A DNA stretch of 57,904 nt from Planctomycetota bacterium (GTDB lineage Bacteria; Planctomycetota; UBA8742; JACQVU01; JANLHZ01): assembly GCA_024653775.1 (NCBI GenBank), contig JANLHZ010000289.1, forward strand, positions 1 to 57,904. The letters run 5' to 3'. The notes under the pieces are model-generated. The model saw nothing but the letters and a program-made list of their open reading frames with translations. It was not told the origin of the DNA and made no database searches. Positions 3,726 through 19,664 of the stretch are shown in pieces (position 1 is the stretch's first letter; each line of letters opens with the position of its first letter). Made by a program: the position numbers and the translations under genes.

Positions 3726-6700
3726 ATGGCAGACGAAACGAAAAACAGAAAAGACGAATCTCAGCAGGGTAAAAAGAAACTGAAGCCGAAGCTCGACAGG
3801 CTCGAGGAGCGCGTAGCTCCCGGAATGATGGGCGGAATGGTCGCGGACGGAAGCATGATGGACGCGGACGCAACTATGGACGCGGACGACACCGGCGGGA
3901 CCGGCGACGCGGTAGACACCAGCGCGGACAGCTTCGACAACACCGATCCGCTCGGCGGAGGCGATACAACGGGAGGCACAGACTTCTCCGACGACCCCGC
4001 TGGCGGAGACCAGTTCGGAAGCGATCTCGACTCCGGAGGCGACGCGGCGTCAACGTCATTCGACGAAGCAGGACCGGCGGAAACCGTCGGCGAGCCGGGT
4101 CCGGGAACTTATGACAACGGCGACGGCTCCACCACCACCATCGGAGACGACGGCACCGCGACGACGACCTACGAAAGCGAAACCGGGTCGTTTACAAGTA
4201 CGACTTCTCCGGATGGCACGATTTCCGAGAGCTGGCAGGGAACGGACGGCGCGTCGGGTTCGTCCACGTTCAACACGGACGGCTCGGGCGCCACGTCGTT
4301 CGCGAGTGCGGACGGCGGAACCAGCAGCTCCACGTGGGACGCGGACGGCAACGGATCGTCCAGCTATTCGAATGCGGACGGTTCGTCCGGAACCTCGAAC
4401 TGGACCGCGGACGGCAGCTACGAATCATCGTTCGCCGACGCGGATGGCGGCACCAACGAGTATAATTCGGACGCGGACGGCAACGTCAATAATACCTACA
4501 CTGACGAAGCCGGCGCGACCAACGTCACGAATGCCGCGGACGACGGCGGGATGACGAACACCTTCACGGACGCGGACGGCGCTTCCACCTCGCACACGAT
4601 GGACGCTGACGGCAATCAGACGATGGAATACCAGGGCGCGGACGGAAGCACCTATGCCACGCAGATCGACGGGGACGGAAACGCGATCCAGGGCCAGGTG
4701 GACGCAGACGGGAACGTCACGGAATTCCCGGATAGCACCGACGTGCAGAACTTCGATGACGGCACCGTCAGCGAGACGTGGGAGAATCCGGACGGAAGTT
4801 CGGGATATTCCGACACCTATGACGACGGAAGTTTTCACAGCCATTATGACAATCCGGACGGTTCGTCGCTGGACGAATTCCAGTCTGACGATGGAAGCTC
4901 TGGCACGTCGGTCGTGAATCCGGACGGCTCTTACCACGAACACTTCGACGACGGCACGGGAGACACCACGGATTCGTGGGTCAACGGAGATGGTTCCGGA
5001 GGCGAATCCGCAACGTATACAGACGCGGAAGGAGGCGAGATAGGCGGACACGACGAGACCTGGAACTCCGACGGCTCCTACTCGACGAGCGACTGGAGCG
5101 ACGACGGATCGACGTATAGCGAAACCGTCAACGCGGACGGAAGTACCGCTGCCTGGGGAACCGACGCAGAAGGAGGCAGCTTCAGCGAAGGCCTGAACCC
5201 GGACGGCTCGTCCTACAGTTCATCGTTCGAAGCGGACGGAAGCGGCTCGTCGGAATGGACGAACGCTGATGGCTCCCAGGGTTCCCAGTGGTACGACGCC
5301 GAAGGAAACGGCGGGATCAGTCAGACGGACGCGGACGGCAACTCCTGGGGAGAGTCTACCTCTCCGGACGGGACCAGCACCTGGAGCTGCAACACCGACG
5401 GAAGCTACCACAGCGAGTGGAACGGAGCCGACGGAAGCGTCAGCCAGTACGGGATGGACGCGGACGGCAACACCTACTCGAGCTGGTCGGACGCGGACGG
5501 AAACTCCGGCTCGTACACCCAGAACGCCGACGGCGGCTCCCACAGCGAATATTATGGCGCCGAGGGAACCTCCGGAAGTTACGACGTCGCGCCCGACGGA
5601 ACCACGACCGACGTCACGAATAACCCGGACGGATCGAGCGCGGCGAATACCGTTCATCCGGACGGCACGTCGTCCTCGACGTGGACGAACGCCGACGGCG
5701 GGACGTCGACCAACGTTTCGAACGCGGACGGCTCCAGCACGTCCACGTGGACGAACGCGGACGGTTCGGGCGGCACGACCAGCGTCAACCCCGACGGCAC
5801 AGTACACACCGAAACAGTCGATGCGAACGGAAACACCGTCGACAGCTTCGATTCGAACGACGGAAGCCACGGCGCCACCACGACGCATCCGGACGGCACC
5901 GTCGAGAACCAGTGGAGCAGCGCCGACGGCTCTGGCGGTTCGAGCGCGACGTATTCGGACGGTTCTTCCGTGACGACCACCTGGGGTCCAGACGGGACGT
6001 TTAGCGAGAGCACGTTCGAGGCCGACGGTTCGAGCCACACCGAGAACGTCAATCCCGACGGCTCGTACCACAGCTATGATTACAGCGCGGACACCGGAGC
6101 GAGCGCGGATTCCTGGGTGAATTCCGACGGCTCGTCCGGGGACACGACGAGTCATCCGGACGGCTCCGTGGAAAGCTCCTGGGTGAATCCGGACGGCTCC
6201 GGAGGCACGAGTTTCACCGACGCGGAAGGAAACTCCGGAAACTCCTGGTCCAACGCGGACGGCTCCGGAGGGAACAGCTACTCCACCGCGGACGGATGGT
6301 CCTCGAACGAGTGCTGGGATTCCGAGGGATCGTATTCGTACAGCTCGGAAGGTCCGGGTGGAGAAGTCTACAGCGGCTTCAATGACGCGGACGGAGGTTC
6401 CGGAGGAAACTGGACCGACGGCCAGGGCAATTCCGGACAGATGAGCACCGACGCGGACGGAAACTCCTACTCGAGCTGGAACCAGGCAGACGGAAGCTAC
6501 GGGTCGAGCGCGTACAACGCGGACGGCTCGTACAACACCGTCTATCAGGACGCAGACGGGAACTACAGCGAGTCGGGCGGCGCTCCGGACGGTTCGAACT
6601 GGTCGAGCAGCGTTAGCGCAGACGGAAGCTCGGCGTATTCCAGCACCGACGCCTACGGCAACACCTATAGCGCGAATTATGGCGCCGACGGCTCCGGCAG

Positions 6701-9700
6701 CGGTTTCAGCCAGAGCGCCGACGGATCGAGTTCCTCGTGGAGCTATGGCGCCGACGGCCACAGCACGAACGACTGGACGAACGCTGACGGCACTTCCGGC
6801 CATTCCGAGTCGAATCCGGACGGAAGCGGAAGCGTCGGCGAGACCTACCCCGACGGTTCGACCCACGTGCAGACGTGGAACGCGGACGGCTCGGGTTCCG
6901 AGACTTCTATCGGCACGGACGGTTCGTCCAGCACGACCACTTGGAACACGGATGGAAACGTCGATCAGCACTTCGACAACGCGAACGGCGATCACGTCAC
7001 CGAAACCACCCACCTGGACGGCACCGTCGAAACCGGATGGAACAATCCGGACGGCTCCGCGGGCGGCAGCGCCACGTACGAAGGCGGCGCCACCGAGACC
7101 TGGAGCGAGTCTCCCGACGGCACGATGAACGAAGCCTGGAGCGATCCGGACGGAAGCTCCGGTAGCGAAGTCGTCAATCCCGACGGCTCATTCAACAATC
7201 ACTACGAGGGCGCGGACGGCTCCGTAAACGACACCTGGAGCAGCGCCGACGGATCGAGCGGTTCGAGTTGGTCGGACGCGGACGGAAACTCCGGCGGATC
7301 CTGGGATTCCGCGGAAGGTTCAGGCGGGACGTACTATCAGAGCGCCGACGGCTCGGGAGGAAACGACTGGTATAGTTCAGACGGTTCCAGCGGTTCGAGC
7401 CACTACAATGCCGACGGTTCGAACTGGGGTTACAACTCCGGCGCGGACGGAAGCCACAACGAGTGGAACTCCGACGCGGAAGGGAACTACAACAGTTCAT
7501 ACTCGGATGCCGCGGGCAACTACGGATCGAGTTGGGGCAGCGCAGACGGCTCCTGGGGCAGCGACTCGGGGGACGCAGCGGGCAACACCTACGGCGAGTA
7601 TCAGAGCGCGGACGGGTCCAGCGGATCGTGGAGCTACGGCGCCGACGGGTCCAGCCAGAGCGTTTACAATGGCGCGGACGGCTCCTATGGAGAGTACCAC
7701 TCCTCGCCGGACGGCTCCGGCGGAGGCGCGTGGTCGAACCCCGACGGCTCCAGCGGCCATAACGAGTATGGCGCAGACGGCTCCGGCTCCGGAGGCTATC
7801 AGAACGCCGACGGTTCGGGAGGCAACTACAGCCAGTCCCCGGACGGCGCAAGTCACTACGAGCAATGGGGCAGCGACGGAAGCTATAGCTCGAACAGCTA
7901 CGATTCCGAAGGCTCCTCATCGAACTACTATTCCAATCCGGATGGAAGCTTCGGGAACAACGTCACGAACGCCGACGGCTCCGGACATTACGAGTACGGA
8001 AACCCGGACGGCTCCGGCGGATGGACCGACGTCGGGAACGACGGCGGTTCGTACAGCCACACCCACGACACTGCGGGCAACGTGACGGATTCCTGGAACA
8101 ACGCCGACGGGTCGAACGGAACGAGCACGTCGAATGCCGACGGAGGGACCAGCAGCACCTGGAACAATCCCGACGGAAGCGCGGGAAGCTCTGTGCAGAA
8201 TCCCGACGGATCGGGGGAGTTCCACCAGACGAATCCCGACGGCTCGCACTCGGACAACGTTTATAATGCCGACGGCTCCGGTAACGCCAGCAACACGTAT
8301 CCCGACGGTTCCACAAGCGCGCAAAGCTGGGACGGTCAGGGCGGAATGAACGAGACGTACACGAACGCCGACGGCTCGTGGAGCGCGCACTCCGCGGACG
8401 GGCAGGGCAACGTAAGCGACTCGTACAGCAGTCCGGACGGAAGCTACGGTTCTTCGAACTATAACGCCGACGGATCGGGAAGCTACAGCCAGACGAACGC
8501 GGACGGGTCGGGCGGATATAGTTCGTGGGACGACGCCGGCAACGGCTACAACTCCTGGACTAACGCCGACGGTTCGACGTATGCTTCGGGCACGTCCGCC
8601 GACGGTTCGTCCTGGAGCAACTGGACCGGTTCGGACGGTAGCGCCGGAGGAAACTACTCCGACGCGGAAGGTAACTACAACAACTGGTCGCAGGCCGCGG
8701 ACGGCTCGTCCTACGGAGAGTTCCAGAGCGCGGACGGATCGTCCGGTTCGTACAGCGCTAACGCGGACGGAAGCTACCACAACGTCTACAATGGCGCCGA
8801 TGGCTCGTATAGCGAGTCCGGAAGCGACGATTACGGGCAGTGGAGCAACGACGTTCGTCCGGACGGGTCCAGCTACTCGAACTGGTCCGGAGCCGACGGA
8901 AGTCACTCGGAAAGCTGGACCGATGCGCAAGGTAACAGCGGGTCGAGCTATTCCGGCGAGTGGGGTTCCGGATCGAGTTACTCGAACGCGGACGGTTCGG
9001 GGGGCGGCTCCTACCAGAGTGCCGACGGCACCTATAGCTCGTACAGCTATAACGCCGACGGCTCGGGCAACTGGAGCGACACGGGTGCAGGTGGCGTCGC
9101 GACCTCCGGCTACTATGGCGCGGACGGCTCCTACGGCTCGACCACGGTCAATCCCGACGGCTCGACCTACAGCGAGTGGTCGGACGCGGAAGGCAACTGG
9201 AATTCGTCCTGGACGAATCCGGATCAGGTCAGCGCGGGCGATCCCGTGCAGAACCCGGACGGAGGAACCACGGTTACGCAGACGAATCCGGACGGTTCGA
9301 CTGTCGGCACCACGACGAACCCGGACGGCAGCGTGAATAACACTGTCACGAATCCGGACGGTTCCATCGCGAACACGAACGTCGACGCCGACGGAAACGT
9401 TCACCACGAAGCCAATCTTAACGGCGAAGAAGGTCCGAACGAGGGCGCAGCGGTCGACGTGAACGCCGACGGCTCGCACGCCGAGAGCACCACCAACGAG
9501 TGGGGAGACACAACCTCGACTACGACCGACGCCGACGGAAACGTCAGCACGACTACTACCTACGACGACGGCTCGACTTCCACGTACACTCAGGGCGCCG
9601 ACGGTTCGAGCAGCGGAAGTTACACCGGATCGGACGGAAGTACGAACCAGTGGACGAATAACGCCGACGGCTCGGGAAGTTCGACCGACAGCGGTCCGTG

Positions 9701-10340
9701 GGGTTCAAGCTCGAGCACCTGGAACGCCGACGGCTCGGGCGAGGGAAGCTACCAGAATGCCGACGGGTCCTCGGGATCGTGGACCTCGAACGCGGACGGA
9801 AGCTACACCCAGACTACGTTTGGCGCCGACGGTAGCGTCAGCACGTACACCTCGAACGCGGACGGCACCTGGGAAAGCTCGGCGACCGACCCGGCGAACA
9901 CCGGAGCGAGCGTCGATTCCGAAGGCAATTACACCGAGACTCCGCCGCCCGCGGATCCGGGCGACGTCCCGCCGCCTCATCCGGAAGGGTACGTCAACGA
10001 GGTCATTTCGCCGCTCTTCGAGGGCGCGGAGACCGGCGCGAATGGCGAACCCGCGTGGGGTCTCGACTACAGCGCCGACAATCCGGGCGCGAGCACCTGG
10101 ACGCTCCCGATCGGCGCGGATCAGGTCAATCTCGAGGACGGATCGTTCACGATCCCCGCGAGCATGTGCGGAGACGCGGGCGACTGGCTGCCTCCGGAGA
10201 TCACCGACAACGGCGACGGCACCTACACCGTCAACTCCTGGCCGATCTCGAATATGGAAGTCAACGCCAACGGTACGGTTACGCTCACCGTCGATATCGG
10301 ACCGATGCCGGGCGAGGCTCCCCCGCCACCGGCTCCGTAA
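3726..10340 (+). CDS. Giant 11-residue-repeat protein (2204 aa), Asp/Gly/Ser-rich
   Basis: The first 35 residues are basic (KKKLKPKLDRLEERVAPG). After that I see no lysine and only one arginine (in DVRPDGSS) in almost 2170 residues, so the protein is extremely acidic. From about residue 130 to 2050 it consists of an 11-residue unit of the form [A/P]-[D/E]-G-[S/N/T]-x4-[W/Y/F/V]-x-x, repeated some 170-175 times. The loops (NADGS, DADGN, NPDGS) look like calcium-binding Asp/Asn-Gly turns with an aromatic at a fixed place, as in a beta-solenoid, but no named repeat family was recognised. The last 150 residues are non-repetitive and end in a proline run. No classical signal peptide is present. 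LEER[VI]APG-like N termini occur on large surface proteins of planctomycete-like bacteria, so an export role for that segment is an inference. Only three cysteines are present. Confidence 0.85.
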   Translation: MADETKNRKDESQQGKKKLKPKLDRLEERVAPGMMGGMVADGSMMDADATMDADDTGGTGDAVDTSADSFDNTDPLGGGDTTGGTDFSDDPAGGDQFGSDLDSGGDAASTSFDEAGPAETVGEPGPGTYDNGDGSTTTIGDDGTATTTYESETGSFTSTTSPDGTISESWQGTDGASGSSTFNTDGSGATSFASADGGTSSSTWDADGNGSSSYSNADGSSGTSNWTADGSYESSFADADGGTNEYNSDADGNVNNTYTDEAGATNVTNAADDGGMTNTFTDADGASTSHTMDADGNQTMEYQGADGSTYATQIDGDGNAIQGQVDADGNVTEFPDSTDVQNFDDGTVSETWENPDGSSGYSDTYDDGSFHSHYDNPDGSSLDEFQSDDGSSGTSVVNPDGSYHEHFDDGTGDTTDSWVNGDGSGGESATYTDAEGGEIGGHDETWNSDGSYSTSDWSDDGSTYSETVNADGSTAAWGTDAEGGSFSEGLNPDGSSYSSSFEADGSGSSEWTNADGSQGSQWYDAEGNGGISQTDADGNSWGESTSPDGTSTWSCNTDGSYHSEWNGADGSVSQYGMDADGNTYSSWSDADGNSGSYTQNADGGSHSEYYGAEGTSGSYDVAPDGTTTDVTNNPDGSSAANTVHPDGTSSSTWTNADGGTSTNVSNADGSSTSTWTNADGSGGTTSVNPDGTVHTETVDANGNTVDSFDSNDGSHGATTTHPDGTVENQWSSADGSGGSSATYSDGSSVTTTWGPDGTFSESTFEADGSSHTENVNPDGSYHSYDYSADTGASADSWVNSDGSSGDTTSHPDGSVESSWVNPDGSGGTSFTDAEGNSGNSWSNADGSGGNSYSTADGWSSNECWDSEGSYSYSSEGPGGEVYSGFNDADGGSGGNWTDGQGNSGQMSTDADGNSYSSWNQADGSYGSSAYNADGSYNTVYQDADGNYSESGGAPDGSNWSSSVSADGSSAYSSTDAYGNTYSANYGADGSGSGFSQSADGSSSSWSYGADGHSTNDWTNADGTSGHSESNPDGSGSVGETYPDGSTHVQTWNADGSGSETSIGTDGSSSTTTWNTDGNVDQHFDNANGDHVTETTHLDGTVETGWNNPDGSAGGSATYEGGATETWSESPDGTMNEAWSDPDGSSGSEVVNPDGSFNNHYEGADGSVNDTWSSADGSSGSSWSDADGNSGGSWDSAEGSGGTYYQSADGSGGNDWYSSDGSSGSSHYNADGSNWGYNSGADGSHNEWNSDAEGNYNSSYSDAAGNYGSSWGSADGSWGSDSGDAAGNTYGEYQSADGSSGSWSYGADGSSQSVYNGADGSYGEYHSSPDGSGGGAWSNPDGSSGHNEYGADGSGSGGYQNADGSGGNYSQSPDGASHYEQWGSDGSYSSNSYDSEGSSSNYYSNPDGSFGNNVTNADGSGHYEYGNPDGSGGWTDVGNDGGSYSHTHDTAGNVTDSWNNADGSNGTSTSNADGGTSSTWNNPDGSAGSSVQNPDGSGEFHQTNPDGSHSDNVYNADGSGNASNTYPDGSTSAQSWDGQGGMNETYTNADGSWSAHSADGQGNVSDSYSSPDGSYGSSNYNADGSGSYSQTNADGSGGYSSWDDAGNGYNSWTNADGSTYASGTSADGSSWSNWTGSDGSAGGNYSDAEGNYNNWSQAADGSSYGEFQSADGSSGSYSANADGSYHNVYNGADGSYSESGSDDYGQWSNDVRPDGSSYSNWSGADGSHSESWTDAQGNSGSSYSGEWGSGSSYSNADGSGGGSYQSADGTYSSYSYNADGSGNWSDTGAGGVATSGYYGADGSYGSTTVNPDGSTYSEWSDAEGNWNSSWTNPDQVSAGDPVQNPDGGTTVTQTNPDGSTVGTTTNPDGSVNNTVTNPDGSIANTNVDADGNVHHEANLNGEEGPNEGAAVDVNADGSHAESTTNEWGDTTSTTTDADGNVSTTTTYDDGSTSTYTQGADGSSSGSYTGSDGSTNQWTNNADGSGSSTDSGPWGSSSSTWNADGSGEGSYQNADGSSGSWTSNADGSYTQTTFGADGSVSTYTSNADGTWESSATDPANTGASVDSEGNYTETPPPADPGDVPPPHPEGYVNEVISPLFEGAETGANGEPAWGLDYSADNPGASTWTLPIGADQVNLEDGSFTIPASMCGDAGDWLPPEITDNGDGTYTVNSWPISNMEVNANGTVTLTVDIGPMPGEAPPPPAP
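4110..9875 (+). repeat. 33-bp tandem coding repeat (11 codons) array
   Basis: The DNA repeats with a 33-bp period around a GCGGACGG or CCGGACGG core that encodes ADG or PDG. Units are diverged between the cores, so this is an old array shaped by selection on protein, with few identical neighbours. Because the array contains few A/T-rich codons, long stop-free frames occur on the opposite strand; these are composition artefacts. Confidence 0.85.
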
Positions 10341-10395: not shown

Positions 10396-11553
10396 TTATA
10401 GGTGTTCGCCTAATTTCTCTATTATGAACACCGAACGGTCACTTTCGTCAAAGCGTCCAAAAAGCCTTTTAGCGTCTCCGTCCGCCCAGGCGTCCATCTC
10501 GTACGTGCAACCATTGACAGGTTTTCCTTTCAATTGCTTGAAGTCTAATCTTTTGGGGCAATTTCTGCGATCGCTTTCCAGATAGACCATCAAGTCGTCA
10601 ATCCGCTCGTTGATCATCGCTTTTCGCAAATCGGGTATGCTATTTACCGACGCTTCGAATCCATTCCCATACCTTACCTTTTTGCACGGGGAAGGCCAAA
10701 CCTGGCGTTGATAGATTTTCGATTTAGCCTTCTCCCAGACGATCGATCCCCATGCGGTTAGAATAAAGTGGCCCTCAAATTCCTGTACGAGAGTCTCCGG
10801 TAATGTCACAGCAGATTCTGGTTGAAGTTCTTTGCTCAATCTTCTGAAGGCCGCAAGATTGTTCTCGATAATTTGGCGCGCTTCCTTGTCGATGTCGATT
10901 GGGAGCTTCGGCAGGGAGAGCAATTCGTCCGAGGTCTCGAATATGTAAACCGTTTCATCCGCATAGAACATCGCGAGCGTCTGCAGGAATCCCTGTATCG
11001 ACTTGAAGCCCCCAGTCAGGTTGAAAATTATTCGGTAGCCGCTTTCTTTATAACCCGGAAGCGCTTCGGAGCACCATTTTACAATATTGGAAAGGGATTC
11101 CTGAAAAGTCTCAATGTTGGAAGTGCGAAGTCCAGAAAACGACAGCGCATCCGAATTGCACTTGAATTCCCGCGTGATCCACGGTTTCAAAATCCGTGAA
11201 AGCTCTTTTCCGAACCATGTATCCGTATGGATAAGTTGAATGAAGTTTTGTCCATCCTGGCTCTCCCACCTACTCCTTCTTTTCAGCGCTATGAGAGATC
11301 GAAATTCAGCGGAGTCTTTTTTTAATTGATCGAGATTATTTAGAAGTGTCCTATCGTTCAGAATTCGTTCAACCTCTTTGATGTGTTTAGTGATGGCGTC
11401 GATGTCATTTTCATTAATATCACTTGGTCTTTCGACATCGTCGAACGATTTCATGTTGGAACACTTATTTATCTTTGGCAACAAGCCATCAACCGCTCTA
11501 GCCGCATTCGTGAGAAGGCTCGTTCCAATAGGTGTCAATATAAAGTTGGGCAT
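10396..11553 (-). CDS. CARF-RelE fusion, CRISPR ancillary mRNA-interferase effector (Cami1-like)
   Basis: A 385-residue protein with three parts. Residues 1-225 form a CARF domain of the APE2256 type: FILTPIGTSLLTN at the N terminus, LIHTDTWFG near 107, and the ligand-loop motif FNLTGGFKS at 177-185, followed by YADETVYIFE. Residues 230-290 look like a winged helix (LPETLVQEFEGHFILTAWGS). Residues 295-385 match a RelE toxin fold (LDFKQLKGKP, YEMDAWADGDAKRL, VFIIEKLGEH). CARF domains bind cyclic oligoadenylate made by Cas10. The characterised CARF-RelE protein Cami1 cleaves mRNA in ribosomes when activated, so the same role is likely here. It is the last gene of the csm operon, separated from csm4 by a 141-bp inserted element. 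An AGAAGGA segment upstream supports the start. Confidence 0.8.
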   Translation of the reverse strand: MPNFILTPIGTSLLTNAARAVDGLLPKINKCSNMKSFDDVERPSDINENDIDAITKHIKEVERILNDRTLLNNLDQLKKDSAEFRSLIALKRRSRWESQDGQNFIQLIHTDTWFGKELSRILKPWITREFKCNSDALSFSGLRTSNIETFQESLSNIVKWCSEALPGYKESGYRIIFNLTGGFKSIQGFLQTLAMFYADETVYIFETSDELLSLPKLPIDIDKEARQIIENNLAAFRRLSKELQPESAVTLPETLVQEFEGHFILTAWGSIVWEKAKSKIYQRQVWPSPCKKVRYGNGFEASVNSIPDLRKAMINERIDDLMVYLESDRRNCPKRLDFKQLKGKPVNGCTYEMDAWADGDAKRLFGRFDESDRSVFIIEKLGEHL

Positions 11554-11576
11554 TATGGGAAGTTCCTTCTAAATTT

Positions 11577-11717
11577 GTAACTGTTCACGGGGTTAAATGC
11601 GTTCGTAGTGACGCCGTAAGGCGTTTCTCGAATACCGCGAACTGAAAACATAAGCTCTTACAAGCTACTACGAACGGAAACAGCCTATGCGCACCAAAAC
11701 ACCCCGTGAACAGTTAC
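11577..11717. mobile_element. 141-bp MITE with 17-bp terminal inverted repeats and 8-bp target duplication
   Basis: The ends are a perfect 17-bp inverted repeat beginning GTAACTGTTCACGGGGT (11577-11593 and 11701-11717). Each end is flanked by the same octamer CTAAATTT (11569-11576 and 11718-11725). The right octamer contains the csm4 stop codon, so insertion duplicated the end of csm4. GTAA-type ends with 8-bp duplications are typical of IS66-family transposition, so an IS66 relative elsewhere in the genome could have moved it (inference). It encodes nothing. Its interior contains a core that recurs at 34215-34294. Confidence 0.85.
11598..11675 (-). repeat. Dispersed core repeat, copy 1 (inside the MITE)
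   Basis: Read on the minus strand it runs from GTTCGTAGT to ACGGCGTCACTACGAACGC, with an imperfect inverted repeat at its ends. The copy at 34215-34294 aligns along the whole length, with the last 20 bases nearly identical. Here the core lies inside IS66-like ends; the other copy has no such ends. Confidence 0.7.
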
Positions 11718-12635
11718 CTAAATTTTACACAAAACAGGATACGCAAACCCGAACTGCACCGCTTCCGGCTTCCCCGGCGCAACGTTTCTGACTATCCGAC
11801 CGTAATACGCCGCTGGCGGTTTCGACAACCGAAACGCGCTTCCTGACTCTAACATTATGAGCGGTTTTTTGAATACGTTGCCGCTGATGTTTTCGCCCAG
11901 CTTTCCGTATTTCACCCGGTATTTCCATTTTCCGTCGGTCGGATCGCTTTTCGAGGGAACGAATGACGAAATCGAGACGAATCCGTTCGCGCCATTAACA
12001 GGGATGAATTTGTGCTCCTGAAGAATAGTATCGCGTTCACGCATGATTTCAAACTGTCCTAGTCCCACGCTCTTGTCGCAGCCGTAGCCGGTTTTAGAGA
12101 GTTCGACGAACAGTTCTTCCACACGGCCGACCGAGTCGTCGCGCGCTCGAACATAGACTTCGATCTCCGAATTCTTGGAGCGCGGATAGGTTCCCGATGT
12201 CTCATAGAGTCCCCCCATCCCTTCACCGAACGTCGTCCCGGTTTCCCGGTTTATCGCGGCATGAAGAACCCGGTGCGTCATCCACGGTTCTGATATAACC
12301 GCGTACCGACTATGCGATGGCTCCGCGCGAATTTTGTCGAAGTCCCCCGCGGCTACCATCGTCTGCTTCTTTCGCAGTTTAGCCATCGCGCCATCGTCTT
12401 CATCAGGCTGAACGGACCACGAAAGCGGTTTCGGAAGCAATCCGCGCGGAAACCCGTCGGAAACTATGAATGGTGGATTCCCGCTCGCGAAGCTTTCGAT
12501 GAAGTTCACCATTGTATCCGGATAAAAATTCGCATGAATGAACGCGAGCGATCCCATGATCGTATCCGACTGCCAAGGCGTACCCGCAGGCGACTTAATT
12601 TTAAGACATAACTTGTAATCTTTGTACGCTGTCAT
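11718..12635 (-). CDS. csm4: Type III-A CRISPR RAMP protein Csm4
   Basis: A 305-residue Cas5-type RAMP protein. In type III-A complexes it caps the 5' handle of the crRNA and contacts Cas10. Recognisable family features are YKLCLKIKSPAGTPWQSDTIMGSLAF at the N terminus (positions 7-32), GNPPFIVSDGFPRGLLPKPL near 52-71, a MTHRV...FGEGMGGLYE segment in the middle, and a glycine-rich GYGCDKSVGLGQFE loop. The start overlaps the csm3 stop by four bases (ATGA), with an AAGG ribosome site just upstream. The stop codon lies within the duplicated octamer created by the adjacent MITE. No csm5 follows, although that is its normal position. Confidence 0.92.
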   Translation of the reverse strand: MTAYKDYKLCLKIKSPAGTPWQSDTIMGSLAFIHANFYPDTMVNFIESFASGNPPFIVSDGFPRGLLPKPLSWSVQPDEDDGAMAKLRKKQTMVAAGDFDKIRAEPSHSRYAVISEPWMTHRVLHAAINRETGTTFGEGMGGLYETSGTYPRSKNSEIEVYVRARDDSVGRVEELFVELSKTGYGCDKSVGLGQFEIMRERDTILQEHKFIPVNGANGFVSISSFVPSKSDPTDGKWKYRVKYGKLGENISGNVFKKPLIMLESGSAFRLSKPPAAYYGRIVRNVAPGKPEAVQFGFAYPVLCKI

Positions 12636-13366
12636 TTTACCTTACTTGCGTTCGCGCGTTCACTCAGATACAAAGCCATGGATTTGTGCTCTTTATCCTC
12701 GCCAAGCCAATCCCCTTGAAATACTTTTATTTGCCCCAGTCCACGGGAAACGCCTCCGCCTATGCCATCTTTTTCGATAATCCCGTAAGTCTCCGCAAGT
12801 TTGCCATAATACTCTGCCTTTTTAGGGATGTCTGTATCGAACCACCTGATAGTGAATCTGACCGTCAGTATTATTCCTTCGGGGATCAGTTCCTGTGAAT
12901 TCAGCGATCCTTTTTGTGCGCTTCCTTTTGATCTATCAATGGCAGTTTGAGCCTTTAAATACGAATGTCCAGGAAGTTTACCCAATGAGTCCTCCGAATC
13001 TTTCACAAGGTAACTATCTCGGAAAATCAATCGCGTGGGCTTTGTATTTCCACCCACAGTGCCACATCCAAAAAGAGTGCATACAAAACAATCGTCCTTG
13101 CCGCAGGGACACGGTTTTCCGTAATGCTTTCCATTTTTTCCGTCCTTATCTTGGTCTTTATTATATTTGTCATACTTCTGCTCAAGTATACATCTGAGCT
13201 TGCCTTTCCAGGATGAACCGGGAATATAGGGCACGTTCGTAATTGGATGCCGGATTATCGGGTTATCGGTCTCTCCAATGCCTGCGTTATCCTTCGAACC
13301 GCCAATTCGAAGTCCTGACATCGTTCGAACGTAACCCGTAATTTCTTCATGTTCGACTAGTTTCAT
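12632..13366 (-). CDS. csm3: Type III-A CRISPR RAMP protein Csm3 (Cas7 backbone, target-RNA nuclease)
   Basis: A 244-residue Cas7-family protein that polymerises along the crRNA and cuts target RNA every six nucleotides. The catalytic Asp is retained as D34 in IGETDNPIIRHP, aligned with D33 of the Streptococcus thermophilus protein. The fold motifs YIPGSSWKGKLR at 47-58 and GGGVSRGLGQIKVF near the C terminus are intact. A cysteine cluster (C86, C88, C93, C96, C101) precedes the conserved LFG, as in many bacterial Csm3 proteins, and probably binds zinc. It is the only Cas7-type gene in the locus, so if the complex works, Csm3 must also fill the 3' capping role normally taken by Csm5. Confidence 0.94.
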   Translation of the reverse strand: MKLVEHEEITGYVRTMSGLRIGGSKDNAGIGETDNPIIRHPITNVPYIPGSSWKGKLRCILEQKYDKYNKDQDKDGKNGKHYGKPCPCGKDDCFVCTLFGCGTVGGNTKPTRLIFRDSYLVKDSEDSLGKLPGHSYLKAQTAIDRSKGSAQKGSLNSQELIPEGIILTVRFTIRWFDTDIPKKAEYYGKLAETYGIIEKDGIGGGVSRGLGQIKVFQGDWLGEDKEHKSMALYLSERANASKVK

Positions 13367-13378
13367 TATTTGCCTCCA

Positions 13379-13765
13379 TCATTTGGTTTTCAATCTCGCA
13401 ACTATGCTAGTTATGAACTCCACGAACCCATGAAATTCTTCTTTGTTCTTCTCCGCGATCGAGACATGCGCCCGCGCGAAGTCACGGAATCCGGTATTCA
13501 ATTTGATAACGTCTCTATTGACGTTGTAATCGACCTGTCTCATAAACTTGTAGAGGGTTTCCCTTGCCTCTCCAAAGCAAGCCCCAGGCTGTTTCAACTT
13601 GTTATCCGCGGATTTGAGCATGTAGAAAAGAGTCCTGAGCGAATTGCTCGTCAAGTTATTGTTCTCAAAATGAATTGCCGCTTTTTCCGCTTTTTCGATG
13701 AATATCTCGCGCTTCAGAAATTCGCCTTCGGTAAACGAATCATTGACATAAAAATCTTCAGGCAT
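13379..13765 (-). CDS. csm2: Csm2-like small subunit of the type III complex
   Basis: A 128-residue all-helical protein of normal Csm2 size. The C-terminal half holds the family pattern: LRTLFYMLKSADNKL, a central KFMRQVDYNVNR helix, and the closing FHGFVEFITSIVARLKTK (18 residues). Csm2 forms the inner filament of the Csm complex and supports binding of target RNA. It lies 10 bp after a second Csm2-like gene and 12 bp before csm3, so all belong to one operon. The ending matches that of the neighbour (GFIEFVTSILVCMKTK), which shows the two are paralogues. Confidence 0.82.
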   Translation of the reverse strand: MPEDFYVNDSFTEGEFLKREIFIEKAEKAAIHFENNNLTSNSLRTLFYMLKSADNKLKQPGACFGEARETLYKFMRQVDYNVNRDVIKLNTGFRDFARAHVSIAEKNKEEFHGFVEFITSIVARLKTK

Positions 13766-13775
13766 AACAGTCTCC

Positions 13776-14444
13776 CTATTTCGTTTTCATACAGACCAGG
13801 ATGCTGGTTACGAACTCGATAAATCCGAGGAATTCATCCTTACTTGACGTCGCGGCCGCGCTGTGTTTCTCGAACAGGGAATAAAGTATCCTCGGGCATA
13901 CCGGATTTCCGGTATCCGAATACCTATTCGAGTTCGACTTGATCTTGTTTTCAAGATTCACGTAGAATGATCGAAAGTCGAATTCGCTGTCAGTCCGCGC
14001 CAGCTTCTCGGCGCGCTTAAGTTCCATGAACACTCGTCTTATCGAAGTCTGCGAAAGCCCCGCATCCCCGAATAACCTCGCTATCCTATCGGGCACATCC
14101 ACGAAGACTTTTTCCGATAAATGTTTCCTGCCGCATGCGTCCGGTTTCCCGAAAAAAGTGGTGCGCGTAAGGTCCGCGCCCAGACTTTCCGTGATCGGTC
14201 TCCTGCTGTCGCGATAACCCCCGCCGCGTCCTCCGCCCGACCGGTTATCGCGGAAATTGCCACGGGCGCGGCTATCGCGTCTCGCCGTCATGTTCTGGGA
14301 TTCCCTTGGAATCGTCTCCACCGCCTGTTTTTGAATATTTCCCATATTTTTTGCGCGGTACTCGTTATTGCACTTCGGCGAGCAGCAGAGATGCCCCGAC
14401 TTCGCGGGAGTGAACTCCTTTCCGCAGACAGCGCAGGCAGTCAT
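13776..14444 (-). CDS. Zinc-ribbon / RG-rich linker / Csm2-domain fusion
   Basis: A 222-residue protein with three parts. Residues 1-30 form a CxxC...CxxxC zinc ribbon (C4, C7, C21, C25, with an extra C20) of the form CxxCGKxFxP. Residues 50-85 are a disordered Arg/Gly-rich linker (RRDSRARGNFRDN, GGGRGGGYRDSRR) of the kind that binds RNA. Residues 115-222 are a Csm2-like helical domain ending GFIEFVTSILVCMKTK. The start overlaps the cas10 stop by four bases, so it is tightly coupled to cas10. It could be a specialised small subunit at one end of the filament, or could help substitute for the absent Csm5; both are inferences. I know of no described Csm2 with this architecture. Confidence 0.75.
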   Translation of the reverse strand: MTACAVCGKEFTPAKSGHLCCSPKCNNEYRAKNMGNIQKQAVETIPRESQNMTARRDSRARGNFRDNRSGGGRGGGYRDSRRPITESLGADLTRTTFFGKPDACGRKHLSEKVFVDVPDRIARLFGDAGLSQTSIRRVFMELKRAEKLARTDSEFDFRSFYVNLENKIKSNSNRYSDTGNPVCPRILYSLFEKHSAAATSSKDEFLGFIEFVTSILVCMKTK

Positions 14445-16960
14445 TCCCCGCCTCCGTTTCTTGCGCGGTTGATCGCGTACGATGCAACAAAATGAAGGAG
14501 CGACATATTCGGAAATTCCAAGCGATTTTCGTCTTCGGACCTCACCGAAATCAGCCCCCTAACGAAGTCGCGGGCGTTTTTTTCGCTATCCGACAATTCT
14601 TCTTCCTTGCGAGGCTCGTAATTACGTTTGATGTCGTAACTCACCAGCGGAACGAATCGAAAGTACAGATTGTCGCCAGTCCTCATGTAGTCGCGATACA
14701 TTTCCGAGTAACCGAGAAGTCTGCGAATCTGACCAGAGCCAACTACTTCGTCTTCGTTCCACTTAGCAAGTTGCTTCGCTAATCCAAGCGCCTCCAGGTA
14801 GTCTTTCCACTGAAGGCAGGTTTCGAACACCGTCAGACGATCCTTCTTCGGCCGCCCGATGTCCACAGCCTCGTCTTCGCCATGTCTTTTTTTGCCGATT
14901 TTATCCTTTTCTCCGAACGGCTCGGTACGATCCGATAGAGTGTGTTTCGCAAATTCGAGTTTCTCATCCGCGTCGTCAACCGCCTGCCTGACCGGAGTAT
15001 GCGAATGAACGAGCGATATACCGGCAGACAGCGTGAAAGATGGATTGTTACAAGTGTACTCTCTAAAGTCTTCCCTTATTTTGCCTGCAAGATTCAGCAT
15101 GGTTTCCCAAGGTCCGAGGCATAGAACGTCGTCCCCGCCGGAATAGATCATGTACACGCTTGCGAATTCCTCGCTCCGGCAAAGATGATCTATCCATCCA
15201 GTGAAAAACAAGTCGATATAACGGGATAGAGTCGATACCCGCGAAACAGATTTCTGTACGTGAGACAAAATATCGTCTTTGTCGTCGTTTTCTCCCGCGA
15301 GACCATCTCTAAATATCTTACCAAGGTTATCGACATCCATTTTCAAGTATGCAAGCGCTCCGCGTCCAGCGCCGCTTTTAGCGATATCCTCAAACGTCAT
15401 TACGCCACTGTCAACCGACTTCGGCACGTGGTTTCCCATCATGCGACCGTAAAGCGGTAGATGGCCGATGCTTCCTTCGTAACGAAGATCGTAAATCAAA
15501 TGCGCGTCGGAATTTTGGGGAAGCGTCTTCAAGGCTTCGATCCGTCCGAATGGGAAGAGGTCGCTTTTTCCGTCGCTAAAAGCAATGTAATTCGCGCCTG
15601 CCAGATTCCTTCCAAACTCTCGCAAATAATTGCAGACGTTGCATAAATAATAGCTTTCATCTCCGTCGCGGCATTCGCTTCCCGCCTTTCTCCCGCAGGA
15701 CTGGCAGAGATTTTCCTGGTGAATCTCCGATAGCGGCTCGATGACGAATTCGGTTTCAAGCCAGCCTTCCCCATTTTGCAGAAGTCCGCGCAGCGGCATC
15801 TTTTTCTCTTCGTCGAGCAGTTCGCCGAGCGTTTCCCGCGACGCGCTGAATTTTTTGAACTCGTCCACGCCGAGGCTGACGGAAGCGAAACAAATCGAAA
15901 CCTCGCAGTCGGTTACGCGTTTCGACCAGTCGTCCACGCTTGATCTGACGTCGCTCAGAACATTCTCCGACTCAGCGGTGTTCGGAAGCAGCAATGTAAA
16001 GTTCCCACCGGCGTTCAGAATCCGGTTTGTAAGCGGCAGGTTCAGCCTTCTTAGAATTTCAGTTGAAACCTGCTCGGACACTAGCTGCACGAACGAGGAT
16101 CTTGCGCGCAGGCTTTTCGCCACGCCTCCCGCGCCATGTTTTACGTTCATTATAAACTTCTGAATGCCGCCAAAGTCCCCGCCAACGACAAGAAAAGGCT
16201 TTCCGCCTTTCCCGTCATACAGGAAAAGCGCTCCAGCGAGCGCGGCGGTTGTTTTCGAGTGGTCGTAAAGAGAAATCTCTGGAACGCTGTTCGTATCCGC
16301 GGGGATGCACCAGCAGTACTTCTCCATAAGGGAAAGAACGCGGTTTATGAATCCCCACGAATCCCGGACTTCGATCGACTCGAACTCCCGCAGAAATCCT
16401 TCCCAGAGCGATGCGTACTCGGTGGTAAGAAGTTCGCCGCGCGGGGTTTCAAGCCTATCTGAATCGTCCCTTAGCGGGAACGCATTTTCCGCAGTTAAAG
16501 GCTTTAGGGGATATACCCATATACCTTCGGTTTTTTTTCCCTCCAGCGAAACATCCACCGGAGAAAGTCGCACCTTCAAATACTTGCGATAATTGGACGA
16601 TTTTTCGTCTCCCTGACCTTCGAGATGAGGAAGCCTCTCCGCTCCCGAGGAAAGACAGTCCGCCCTGGTTATCAGTTTGTGCCCATCGACCATCGGCAGG
16701 TGGTGGTGCGCGGCAAGCTCTGTAACGGAATCGATTCGAAGTCCATCCGGGCAGTTCTTGCGGAGAACCTTGTCGCAGAATTGATATGTGAATATGGCGT
16801 GAAGATGCGAAAAGTAGCCCCTGTTCGGACAAAGATTTTCGATCTGATCTTTCGATTCCAGCTCGCTGTATTTACCCCCGGCGGCCCGCTGATAGAACTT
16901 ACCGATGTCGTGGAGAAGCCCCGCGAGAACGACTTCGTGGACTGCGTGTTGATCTTTCAT
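14441..16960 (-). CDS. cas10: Cas10/Csm1, HD nuclease and cyclic-oligoadenylate synthetase
   Basis: An 839-residue type III signature protein. The N-terminal HD domain is intact (GLLHDIGKF at 14-22, with downstream His residues HAIFTYQF and HHLPMVDGHK), so single-stranded DNase activity is expected. A zinc site follows (CQSCGRKAG...YYLCNVC). The second palm domain carries the cyclase motif SGGDD with GGDD at 608-611, so cyclic oligoadenylate synthesis is expected when target RNA is bound. Domain D forms the C-terminal 150 residues. It is the first gene of the operon cas10-zn-csm2-csm2-csm3-csm4-CARF-RelE. No strong ribosome site precedes the ATG. Confidence 0.95.
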   Translation of the reverse strand: MKDQHAVHEVVLAGLLHDIGKFYQRAAGGKYSELESKDQIENLCPNRGYFSHLHAIFTYQFCDKVLRKNCPDGLRIDSVTELAAHHHLPMVDGHKLITRADCLSSGAERLPHLEGQGDEKSSNYRKYLKVRLSPVDVSLEGKKTEGIWVYPLKPLTAENAFPLRDDSDRLETPRGELLTTEYASLWEGFLREFESIEVRDSWGFINRVLSLMEKYCWCIPADTNSVPEISLYDHSKTTAALAGALFLYDGKGGKPFLVVGGDFGGIQKFIMNVKHGAGGVAKSLRARSSFVQLVSEQVSTEILRRLNLPLTNRILNAGGNFTLLLPNTAESENVLSDVRSSVDDWSKRVTDCEVSICFASVSLGVDEFKKFSASRETLGELLDEEKKMPLRGLLQNGEGWLETEFVIEPLSEIHQENLCQSCGRKAGSECRDGDESYYLCNVCNYLREFGRNLAGANYIAFSDGKSDLFPFGRIEALKTLPQNSDAHLIYDLRYEGSIGHLPLYGRMMGNHVPKSVDSGVMTFEDIAKSGAGRGALAYLKMDVDNLGKIFRDGLAGENDDKDDILSHVQKSVSRVSTLSRYIDLFFTGWIDHLCRSEEFASVYMIYSGGDDVLCLGPWETMLNLAGKIREDFREYTCNNPSFTLSAGISLVHSHTPVRQAVDDADEKLEFAKHTLSDRTEPFGEKDKIGKKRHGEDEAVDIGRPKKDRLTVFETCLQWKDYLEALGLAKQLAKWNEDEVVGSGQIRRLLGYSEMYRDYMRTGDNLYFRFVPLVSYDIKRNYEPRKEEELSDSEKNARDFVRGLISVRSEDENRLEFPNMSLLHFVASYAINRARNGGGE

Positions 16961-17487: not shown

Positions 17488-17596
17488 TGCAGAGCCGCCA
17501 GGGAATTAAATTCAAGATGGCGAACCGATCCTGCGGAGATGGCCGGAAACGTGAATTATCGAACCAACACTTTTTTTGTTGTGGTGAAAAACGGTT

Positions 17597-18532
17597 GTTT
17601 CAATCCCTTGTTCATCAGGGAAGCGCTTTGAGAAAAGGAGCAACCATGATAGCACACACAGGCCACCACGTTTTCAATCCCTTGTTCATCAGGGAAGCGC
17701 TTTGAGAAAATGGAGAACATCGTTCAAACACCCACCGTCTACAGATTTCAATCCCTTGTTCATCAGGGAAGCGCTTTGAGCGTTTTCGGTTCTACGACAT
17801 CCTAGCAGGAATAGAAAAATTTCAATCCCTTGTTCATCAGGGAAGCGCTTTGAGGTTGATCTCCCTCGATTACAAGCCACAGTTCTCCAAGATTTCAATC
17901 CCTTGTTCATCAGGGAAGCGCTTTGAGAAGGCGACTCTTGAAGAGGATGGTTCCCTGAAGAACTATTTCAATCCCTTGTTCATCAGGGAAGCGCTTTGAG
18001 TTCACAGTGAAGGGCAAGAGGCCCTTCACTGCGAGGCTGCGGTAGTGTACTACCGCATCTTTCAATCCCTTGTTCATCAGGGAAGCGCTTTGAGGGTGCT
18101 TTCAGAGGTACCATTCGTCCCCATCGGGGAGTTTCAATCCCTTGTTCATCAGGGAAGCGCTTTGAGCGATCACGGAAGAAATCACTGGGACGGATAACGG
18201 CACTGTTTCAATCCCTTGTTCATCAGGGAAGCGCTTTGAGTAAAGTCGGCGTTACTCGGGCCTCGAAAAGAAATCGTTTCAATCCCTTGTTCATCAGGGA
18301 AGCGCTTTGAGGCCGCCGCCGTGAGAAGAAATTTAACTCACGGATAGAGGTTTCAATCCCTTGTTCATCAGGGAAGCGCTTTGAGGTTTAGGTTTTTTAT
18401 TACAGCCCGGCGACACCGGGCAGGTTTCAATCCCTTGTTCATCAGGGAAGCGCTTTGAGTAGATAATTTTCTTGACGTGATTCCAACAGCGTGCTAGTTT
18501 CAATCCCTTGTTCATCAGGGAAGCGCTTTGAG
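17597..18532 (-). CRISPR. CRISPR array, 13 repeats and 12 spacers, type III
   Basis: The 36-bp repeat on the plus strand begins GTTTCAATCCC and ends GCGCTTTGAG. Its 35-bp core is invariant in all 13 copies. Read on the minus strand it ends in ATTGAAAC, the usual 8-nt crRNA handle, so transcription is most likely leftward, from a leader at 18533-18767 on the cas6 side. Repeats start (35-bp core) at 17598, 17672, 17746, 17820, 17893, 17966, 18060, 18132, 18206, 18277, 18351, 18425 and 18498. Spacers are 36-39 bp except the sixth (18001-18059), which is 59 bp and contains two perfect hairpins. The outermost repeat base is G in copies 1 and 8-13 but T, A, A, A, A, C in copies 2-7. Confidence 0.98.
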
Positions 18533-18767
18533 TGCAGTGTCACAAGTCCCCGTCCGCCTACCGTTTATAACGCGGTTTGCGAGCGGGTCTAAAAATCTCC
18601 CCAAAACTAGTGTTGATAACTCCAGAAAAAACTCCATTTTGCTCCGTAACTCCTTGGTGTGCGGGGATATCGAGCGGGTCCGGGGGTTTTTGCCACCCTG
18701 AGCCGCTCGAAGGTTACGGTTCGTTATGTTTCCAATGATCGACAAGACGACTGTCATCGTAAACCGT
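18533..18767 (-). promoter_or_regulatory. Probable CRISPR leader and array promoter
   Basis: The 235 bp between the cas6 stop and the first identical repeats is the expected leader position for leftward transcription. On the minus strand a TTTAGA (18588-18593) and TTATAA (18565-18570) pair with 17-bp spacing is a plausible promoter about 30 bp from the first repeat. No ORF here is convincing. Confidence 0.5.
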
Positions 18768-19664
18768 TCAATAGATTGTGACAAGGGGCTCGTTTATAAA
18801 AAAACGCACTCTTCCAAGACCGAAGGAAGTGTGACGACCGACATGCATGACTTCAGCGATGCGAAGCATGTTCGAAAACATTTGTATCGGACCGCGAAAC
18901 GTCGCGTTGCCGGTAAGTCCCTCAAGGAGCATCACGCGTCCCTGTCTTCTTGAAAATCTTCCTCTTGACGCGGATTTCAATTCGTTTCCGACGCATTCGA
19001 CTTTTTCAGCGAGGGACAGAATCGCGTCCCTGTCCAGTTCAAGTTTGTTACCAATGTGGAAGTATGAAATCAATTCGAGACGACGAAGGATGGAGGAGAC
19101 AAGCAGTTTGAAGTCGATGGTTTTAGCCACTTTTCCGTCCGACTTAATCGACAGCGGAGAAACTGTTTGCAGCCTGACGGTATCGACCCTATCTCCTTCG
19201 TCCGACGTAAGCGACGCTGGAATTTCCAGCGTGTGGGAACCCTCGCCGCGGACTTCCTCGATCTCGAATTTCGACCTGAATTTGCCGATGCCGGATTCGC
19301 CAAGTTTTTCGAGCGCCGCCCGGAAGAAAGGAAAGTACGCCACAGCCTTGCCAAAGAGGATAAGATCGACTGAAGATTGGTCCGAGTCGACCGCGCGATC
19401 CTCGAATACGAAAGGATGTGGAGCTTTTTCGTAAAGACGCATCACGTCGGAGTCCGTGGGAACCGGAGTCTCGAAAAGATAAGGATACGCGCAACTATAT
19501 TTCAGTTGGCAATCCATGCAATGAACGGGCATTGTGCAAACGAGTTCTCGTAGCGTCTTGCCGAAGCCGCCGCGAAGCGCGTTCGAGAACCAAAAAGTCT
19601 CCTTTCCTGAATCCGACAGTCGTATATTGAAGGTGAATCTTTTGTAGACGAAGGCGCTAAACAT
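18768..19664 (-). CDS. cas6: CRISPR endoribonuclease Cas6
   Basis: A 298-residue RAMP endonuclease that cuts the array transcript within each repeat to give crRNAs with an 8-nt 5' handle. The C-terminal signature is clear: HVGRHTSFGLGRVRFF, the glycine-rich loop of Cas6. Earlier segments also fit (RGGFGKTLRELVC, a CxxCxxxxxC cluster CMDCQLKYSC, and YLFETPVP). The ATG at 19664 is chosen because MFSAFVYKRFTFNIRL gives the normal beta strand at the N terminus; the longer frame from 19820 adds unconserved Arg-rich residues. It sits upstream of the leader, apart from the effector operon, and probably has its own promoter. Confidence 0.9.
   Translation of the reverse strand: MFSAFVYKRFTFNIRLSDSGKETFWFSNALRGGFGKTLRELVCTMPVHCMDCQLKYSCAYPYLFETPVPTDSDVMRLYEKAPHPFVFEDRAVDSDQSSVDLILFGKAVAYFPFFRAALEKLGESGIGKFRSKFEIEEVRGEGSHTLEIPASLTSDEGDRVDTVRLQTVSPLSIKSDGKVAKTIDFKLLVSSILRRLELISYFHIGNKLELDRDAILSLAEKVECVGNELKSASRGRFSRRQGRVMLLEGLTGNATFRGPIQMFSNMLRIAEVMHVGRHTSFGLGRVRFFINEPLVTIY

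Follow-up and report, generated by a model that had tools for sequence, protein, structure and literature searches.

A divergent second Csm2 with a predicted N-terminal zinc finger in a type III-A CRISPR locus of a Planctomycetota bacterium

Introduction

In L. lactis and S. thermophilus, cleavage of target RNA by the type III-A complex is reported to need an arginine in helix 2 of the small subunit Csm2 (SeCsm2 R49, LlCsm2 R48, StCsm2 R41; PMC10289348, PMC8964682). In the solved structures of type III-A complexes, helix 3 contributes a tyrosine and an arginine that hold phosphates of the target (PMC10289348, PMC8964682). Complexes free of target hold Csm2 loosely (PMC8964682). Among the core subunits of type III complexes, Csm2 is understood least; it touches the target RNA and is easily lost in the target-free state, and there is debate over how it affects activation. 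A literature search for Csm2 with a zinc ribbon, zinc or a cold-shock domain found no description of such a protein.

The locus described here lies in a stretch of 57,904 nucleotides (contig JANLHZ010000289.1 of assembly GCA_024653775.1; hereafter the window) from a Planctomycetota bacterium. Its type III-A operon has two adjacent csm2 genes, one plain and the other, hereafter the long csm2, encoding a predicted zinc finger and an Arg/Gly-rich arm in front of a Csm2 domain. That one locus has both a plain Csm2 and a finger-bearing one, and that relatives have a cold-shock domain in place of the finger, offers a direct route to the effect of an extra nucleic-acid grip on target binding and signalling.

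Gene organisation of the locus

The window contained cas10/csm1, csm2, csm3 and csm4 together with a CRISPR array, the gene set of a type III-A system. All genes were located on the minus strand in the order cas6, CRISPR array, cas10, finger-csm2, csm2, csm3, csm4 and a gene for a CARF-RelE effector. The cas6 gene (18768-19664; PADLOC Cas6, 4.7e-76) is likely to start at an internal ATG of an open reading frame listed from 19820, and is followed by the array (17583-18534), in which 13 repeats were found at a spacing of mostly 71-74 (one of 94). The sequence of cas10/csm1 (14441-16960; TIGR02578, 1e-167) included an HD motif and GGDD. Downstream of the two csm2 genes were csm3 (cas7; 12632-13366; TIGR02582, 5.6e-38), csm4 (cas5; 11718-12635; TIGR01903, 2.9e-23; PADLOC Csm4, 6e-60) and the gene of a CARF7-RelE-type effector (10396-11553; PADLOC CARF7--CARF_RelE, 3.2e-101). 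No csm5 was found in the cas operon of the window, either in the list of open reading frames or by profile searches.

The long csm2 (13776-14444, minus strand) encodes a polypeptide of 222 amino acids. Its start codon overlaps the stop codon of cas10 in the sequence ATGA, and a GGAGG ribosome site lies directly 5' of the ATG; coordinates, strand and frame were confirmed, as was the coupling to cas10 noted in the initial annotation. Because the ribosome site and the ATGA coupling are both at the first ATG, the finger falls inside the translated frame, and a start codon 3' of the finger was considered and judged unlikely.

Two further features were noted around the operon. Between csm4 and the CARF gene, just past the csm4 stop codon, was a MITE-like element of 141 bp (11577-11717) with perfect 17-bp inverted ends, GTAACTGTTCACGGGGT, flanked on either side (11569-11576 and 11718-11725) by a copy of the 8-bp direct repeat AAATTTAG; about 40 copies were scored genome-wide among 224 candidates. 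In its ends and the length of the duplication, the element resembles those of IS66 type. Adjoining the CRISPR locus, positions 3726-10340 encode a 2204-aa protein that begins with LEERVAP and consists mostly of short [AP]DGS-type repeats.

The Csm2 domain of the long Csm2

The plain csm2 (13379-13765, minus strand, 128 aa) was recognised by the Pfam Csm2 model (9.1e-10), whereas the long Csm2 scored below the cut-off (E=0.098) and was not matched by the PADLOC Csm2 models. The relationship of the two was nevertheless evident from direct comparison: the C-terminal 114 residues of the long Csm2 were 30% identical to the adjacent plain Csm2 (BLASTP E=4e-10 for the pair), and both proteins share the C-terminal ending F-x-G-F-[IV]-E-F-[IV]-T-S-I. 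Together with their sister placing in phylogenetic trees, this bore out the paralogy proposed in the initial annotation.

In an AlphaFold2 model of the long Csm2, built from six sequences, most of the Csm2 helices had a mean pLDDT of ~70-87. Foldseek searches with this model returned Csm2 chains as all of the best 16 PDB matches (E-values weak, 0.1-0.8; probability 0.77-1.00), and the model of the plain Csm2 likewise matched Csm2 chains. The prediction for the protein alone, which was to decide whether its C-terminal part folds as Csm2, thus came out in favour of that fold. By alignment, a profile match to solved Csm2 and the predicted fold, the C-terminal domain (aa 96-222; 13779-14159, minus strand) is a divergent Csm2.

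R136 of the long Csm2 corresponds to the cleavage-site arginine (SeCsm2 R49, LlCsm2 R48, StCsm2 R41) and was the single residue invariant across the 13 Csm2 domains of alignment A6. The helix-3 arginine was also kept (R174; SeCsm2 R91), and the target-contact tyrosine (SeCsm2 Y87) was replaced by serine (S170). The plain Csm2 retained all three residues (R44, Y80 and R84). With R136 and R174 in place, the long Csm2 would therefore seem suited to a place in the complex and to a part in cleavage.

The N-terminal finger and the Arg/Gly-rich arm

Cysteine and histidine residues were concentrated in the first 25 residues of the long Csm2 (C4, C7, H18, C20, C21 and C25), with just three more cysteines in the remaining 197. 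The likely ligands are C4, C7, C21 and C25, with C20 and H18 as alternatives, and from these four cysteines the finger (aa 1-34; 14343-14444, minus strand) is predicted to bind metal. The AlphaFold2 model had two short strands in this region followed by a helix (residues 23-43) starting at the second cysteine pair, with pLDDT values of 58-70. A CxxC followed by a second cysteine pair at a helix start is the pattern of a treble clef, here seen in a low-confidence model, and the Pfam leads, both below the cut-off, were NinG (E=1.7e-4) and DUF2116, a 'probable treble clef' (E=0.006). The module therefore looks more like a treble clef than a classical zinc ribbon; of the zinc ribbon in the initial annotation, the four-cysteine finger stood, and treble-clef-like is the better description of its type. 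Searches for a donor of the finger in 60 related genomes gave weak matches only, at small zinc-binding proteins (best outside match 0.005).

The finger is followed by a disordered arm and tether (aa 47-95; 14160-14306, minus strand), as judged by composition and pLDDT, which was below 50 for residues 36-87. In residues 47-86, arginine occurred 11 times, glycine 7 times and lysine not at all, with a net charge of +6, in agreement with the RG-rich linker described earlier.

Csm2 proteins with finger, cold-shock domain or basic tail

A comparison set of ~34 Csm2 proteins was assembled from a phylum-wide search with the Pfam Csm2 model (392 genomes, 29 of them matched) and from scanning the collection with the clade's Csm4, which yielded four loci, all titled Planctomycetota. 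The closest relative found was in Planctomycetota bacterium MAG B1Sed10_114 (G029), where locus L044 has the order cas6, cas10, csm2, csm3 and csm4. Its sole Csm2 (L044:2846-3373) starts with C-x2-C-x13-C-x2-C, continues with a Gly-rich linker and ends in a Csm2 domain, with GGAGG before the ATG; the finger gave a Pfam lead to zf_Tbcl_2, again a 'probable treble clef' (0.026, below the cut-off). The domain order had at first been thought undescribed, but here it is found in the only Csm2 of another genome. The Csm2 domain of G029 (Pfam, 1.6e-9) was 41% identical to the plain csm2 product of the window and 24% to the long Csm2. The two fingers aligned over C-x2-C-G-K-x-F-x-P with x13 to the second cysteine pair, and only 39 of 20000 cysteine-preserving shuffles scored as high, indicating likeness beyond the cysteines. 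A search for other zinc-finger Csm2 proteins, suggested earlier, thus produced one case: across the 392 genomes of the phylum, profile A3 recovered further clade members and no second finger-Csm2 beyond that of G029. No finger-Csm2 was found in plasmids or in viral contigs.

Profile A3 also identified a Csm2 missed by the Pfam Csm2 model (L070, G262:C377), which belongs to the same clade as the window proteins and has a cold-shock domain at its N-terminus (Pfam E=1.4e-13). Cold-shock domains were also present in two Csm2 proteins of another clade (L017, G335:C250, 1.6e-6; L018, G256:C195, 8.6e-4; Pfam). The Csm2 proteins of G225 and G335 that belong to the window clade carry basic tails at the N-terminal end instead of a finger. 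A rough tally put N-terminal extensions of at least 20 residues, mostly of disorder-type composition, on 25 of 34 Csm2 homologues.

Some of these loci were unusual in other respects. The loci L040:2215-5378 (G335:C287) and L038 (G225:C870) had a cas10-csm2 pair with no csm3 or csm4 seen; the cas10 of L040 has AGDG in place of the expected GGDD, and a protein-kinase-like gene comes after the pair. In two csm5-less relatives (L046:9992-11338 and L047:3187-4575), Csm4 is extended at its C-terminal end, which finishes in a basic tail.

Phylogeny of the Csm2 domains

In trees of the Csm2 domain, both window proteins and that of G029 grouped together with support of 99/97 (93/93 with G262 added), and the two window copies were sisters at 94/84 (88/70 with G262 added). 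Since the branch of the long Csm2 is very long (2.18 in the first tree, against 0.59 for its plain sister, and 1.65 in the tree with G262), the sister placing has moderate weight. The long Csm2 is a fast-evolving second copy, and the length of its branch could mean relaxed constraint. Monophyly of the two finger-Csm2 proteins was compatible with the data (p-AU 0.27), and a single origin of the three cold-shock Csm2 proteins was rejected (p-AU 7.6e-5), so that these fusions appear to have arisen at least twice.

The simplest and likeliest history is one gain of a finger in an ancestral Csm2, one duplication, and loss of the finger from the short copy. The long Csm2 would accordingly descend from a finger-bearing Csm2 of the kind still present as the sole Csm2 in G029; after duplication, the short copy would have lost the finger and kept the standard target-contact residues, and the long copy would have kept the finger and the cleavage-site arginine and evolved fast. 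Alternatively, the duplication may be older and G029 may have lost its plain copy. The two-copy arrangement is known from one genome only.

Proposed role of the long Csm2 and alternatives

On balance, we lean towards the long Csm2 being a diverged second small subunit of the window's type III-A complex that has an extra grip on nucleic acid. The nucleic acid held by the finger and its Arg/Gly tether would most likely be the target transcript or single-stranded DNA close by. Since complexes without target have a loose hold on Csm2 (PMC8964682), such a tether could keep it on the target RNA, and the long Csm2 would be expected to fill a single position, or a small number of positions, in the row of Csm2 subunits, where it would help the complex to hold its target. 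Since relatives have a cold-shock domain where the long Csm2 has its finger, nucleic acid is the most likely ligand of finger and arm, and the occurrence of such fusions within the same clade, and repeatedly, favours an extra nucleic-acid contact. A nucleic-acid contact of the small subunit's own, as put forward in the initial annotation, is therefore the best reading, with cold-shock domains or basic tails found at the same end of Csm2 in the clade. Against it stand the replacement of the tyrosine by S170, the very long branch, the low-confidence model of the finger and the weak Foldseek E-values.

Proteins, too, can be ligands of basic arms and of zinc fingers, those of treble-clef type included, and instead of binding nucleic acid, finger and arm might recruit a protein, such as the CARF-RelE effector or a nuclease of the host. 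A precedent is the disordered region of S. epidermidis Csm5, which recruits PNPase (PMC9762709), and the window operon is without csm5; however, the module found at the same position in relatives has a nucleic-acid-binding fold, and we regard recruitment as unlikely. Arg/Gly-rich arms are, moreover, typical of RNA contact, which also speaks against a protein ligand. The absence of csm5 from the window operon, and from beside csm4 in G029, could instead mean that the long Csm2 replaces Csm5 by sitting at the far end of the complex, halting growth of the Csm3/Csm2 rows and contacting the target end or recruiting trimming nucleases. A Csm5-like capping role of this kind had been suggested earlier and did not hold up. 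The csm5-less loci L045-L047 have one plain, fingerless Csm2, a locus with a cold-shock Csm2 (L043) does have csm5, and the same genome encodes csm5 on another contig (C142). Because G029 has only one Csm2, every copy there bears a finger, which also counts against this reading. Profile searches found no match to a RAMP domain in the long Csm2. As csm5 status across the related loci tracks neither the finger nor a second Csm2, replacement of Csm5 was rejected as improbable.

The long Csm2 might also be a redundant duplicate in decay, its finger inherited from the ancestor and its Csm2 domain drifting without a role. Its branch is several times that of its sister (2.18 versus 0.59 in the first tree), the tyrosine is lost and the Pfam score is below the cut-off, yet the frame is open, the cysteine ligands are intact, R136 and R174 are conserved, and the GF[IV]EF[IV]TSI ending, the ribosome site and the coupling to cas10 have all been kept, so that we give decay little credence. 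The weak NinG lead could hint that the protein works apart from the complex, perhaps as a regulator whose NinG-like finger binds the CRISPR RNA or the DNA of the operon; a retained Csm2 fold and cleavage-site arginine make sense only inside the complex, however, and the same architecture is the only Csm2 in G029, making this very improbable.

The csm5 on C142 belongs to a scattered second type III-A set. On this contig (L056:5886-9270, G000:C142) were csm4, csm5 and a csm3 whose product has a long extension at its C-terminus, and on another (L037:4973-8033, G000:C47) a Csm2 with an Arg/Asp/Pro-rich tail, its gene preceded by one for a 790-aa protein that belongs to no known family. A csm2-csm3 pair related to this set was observed in G002 (L041). 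One Cas10 palm domain was found in the whole genome, so this second set may lack a Cas10, and its Csm5 could possibly act in trans on the window complex.

Taking the extra-grip reading of the long Csm2 further, a type III complex might contain two kinds of small subunit, with the finger-bearing paralogue in one position of the Csm2 row anchoring it to the transcript or transcription bubble, and Csm2 of Planctomycetota might be a socket repeatedly fitted with nucleic-acid-binding modules of unrelated kinds, be it a zinc finger, a cold-shock domain or a basic tail; we offer this wider picture tentatively, as rather less probable than not. Csm2 does seem to have been given an extra nucleic-acid grip repeatedly, and the swap of binding modules within one clade is a more telling find than the domain order of the finger-Csm2. 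The locus also indicates that small-subunit genes beside an annotated csm2 can escape standard profiles.

Comparison with known systems

The long Csm2 resembles Csm2 of the Cas11 group (PF03750 / TIGR01870) in its modelled helical fold, its cleavage-site arginine, its position between cas10 and csm3 and its coupling to cas10. It differs in the finger and Arg/Gly arm placed in front, in scoring below the Pfam cut-off, in having Ser for the Tyr of the AYxxGR motif, and in being a second copy beside a normal Csm2. The finger-Csm2 of B1Sed10_114 shares with it the finger, a Gly-rich linker, the Csm2 domain, the place after cas10 and an operon without visible csm5, but is the only Csm2 there and has a normal Csm2 domain that is nearer to the plain csm2 of the window. 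The cold-shock Csm2 proteins (G262:C377, G335:C250 and G256:C195) likewise have a small single-domain module and a linker before Csm2, although the module is a cold-shock domain of separate origin instead of a finger, and G256 keeps csm5. Finally, the window operon has Cas10, Csm2, Csm3, Csm4, Cas6 and a CARF effector in common with the type III-A systems of S. epidermidis, L. lactis and S. thermophilus, whereas those systems have csm5 and one fingerless Csm2.
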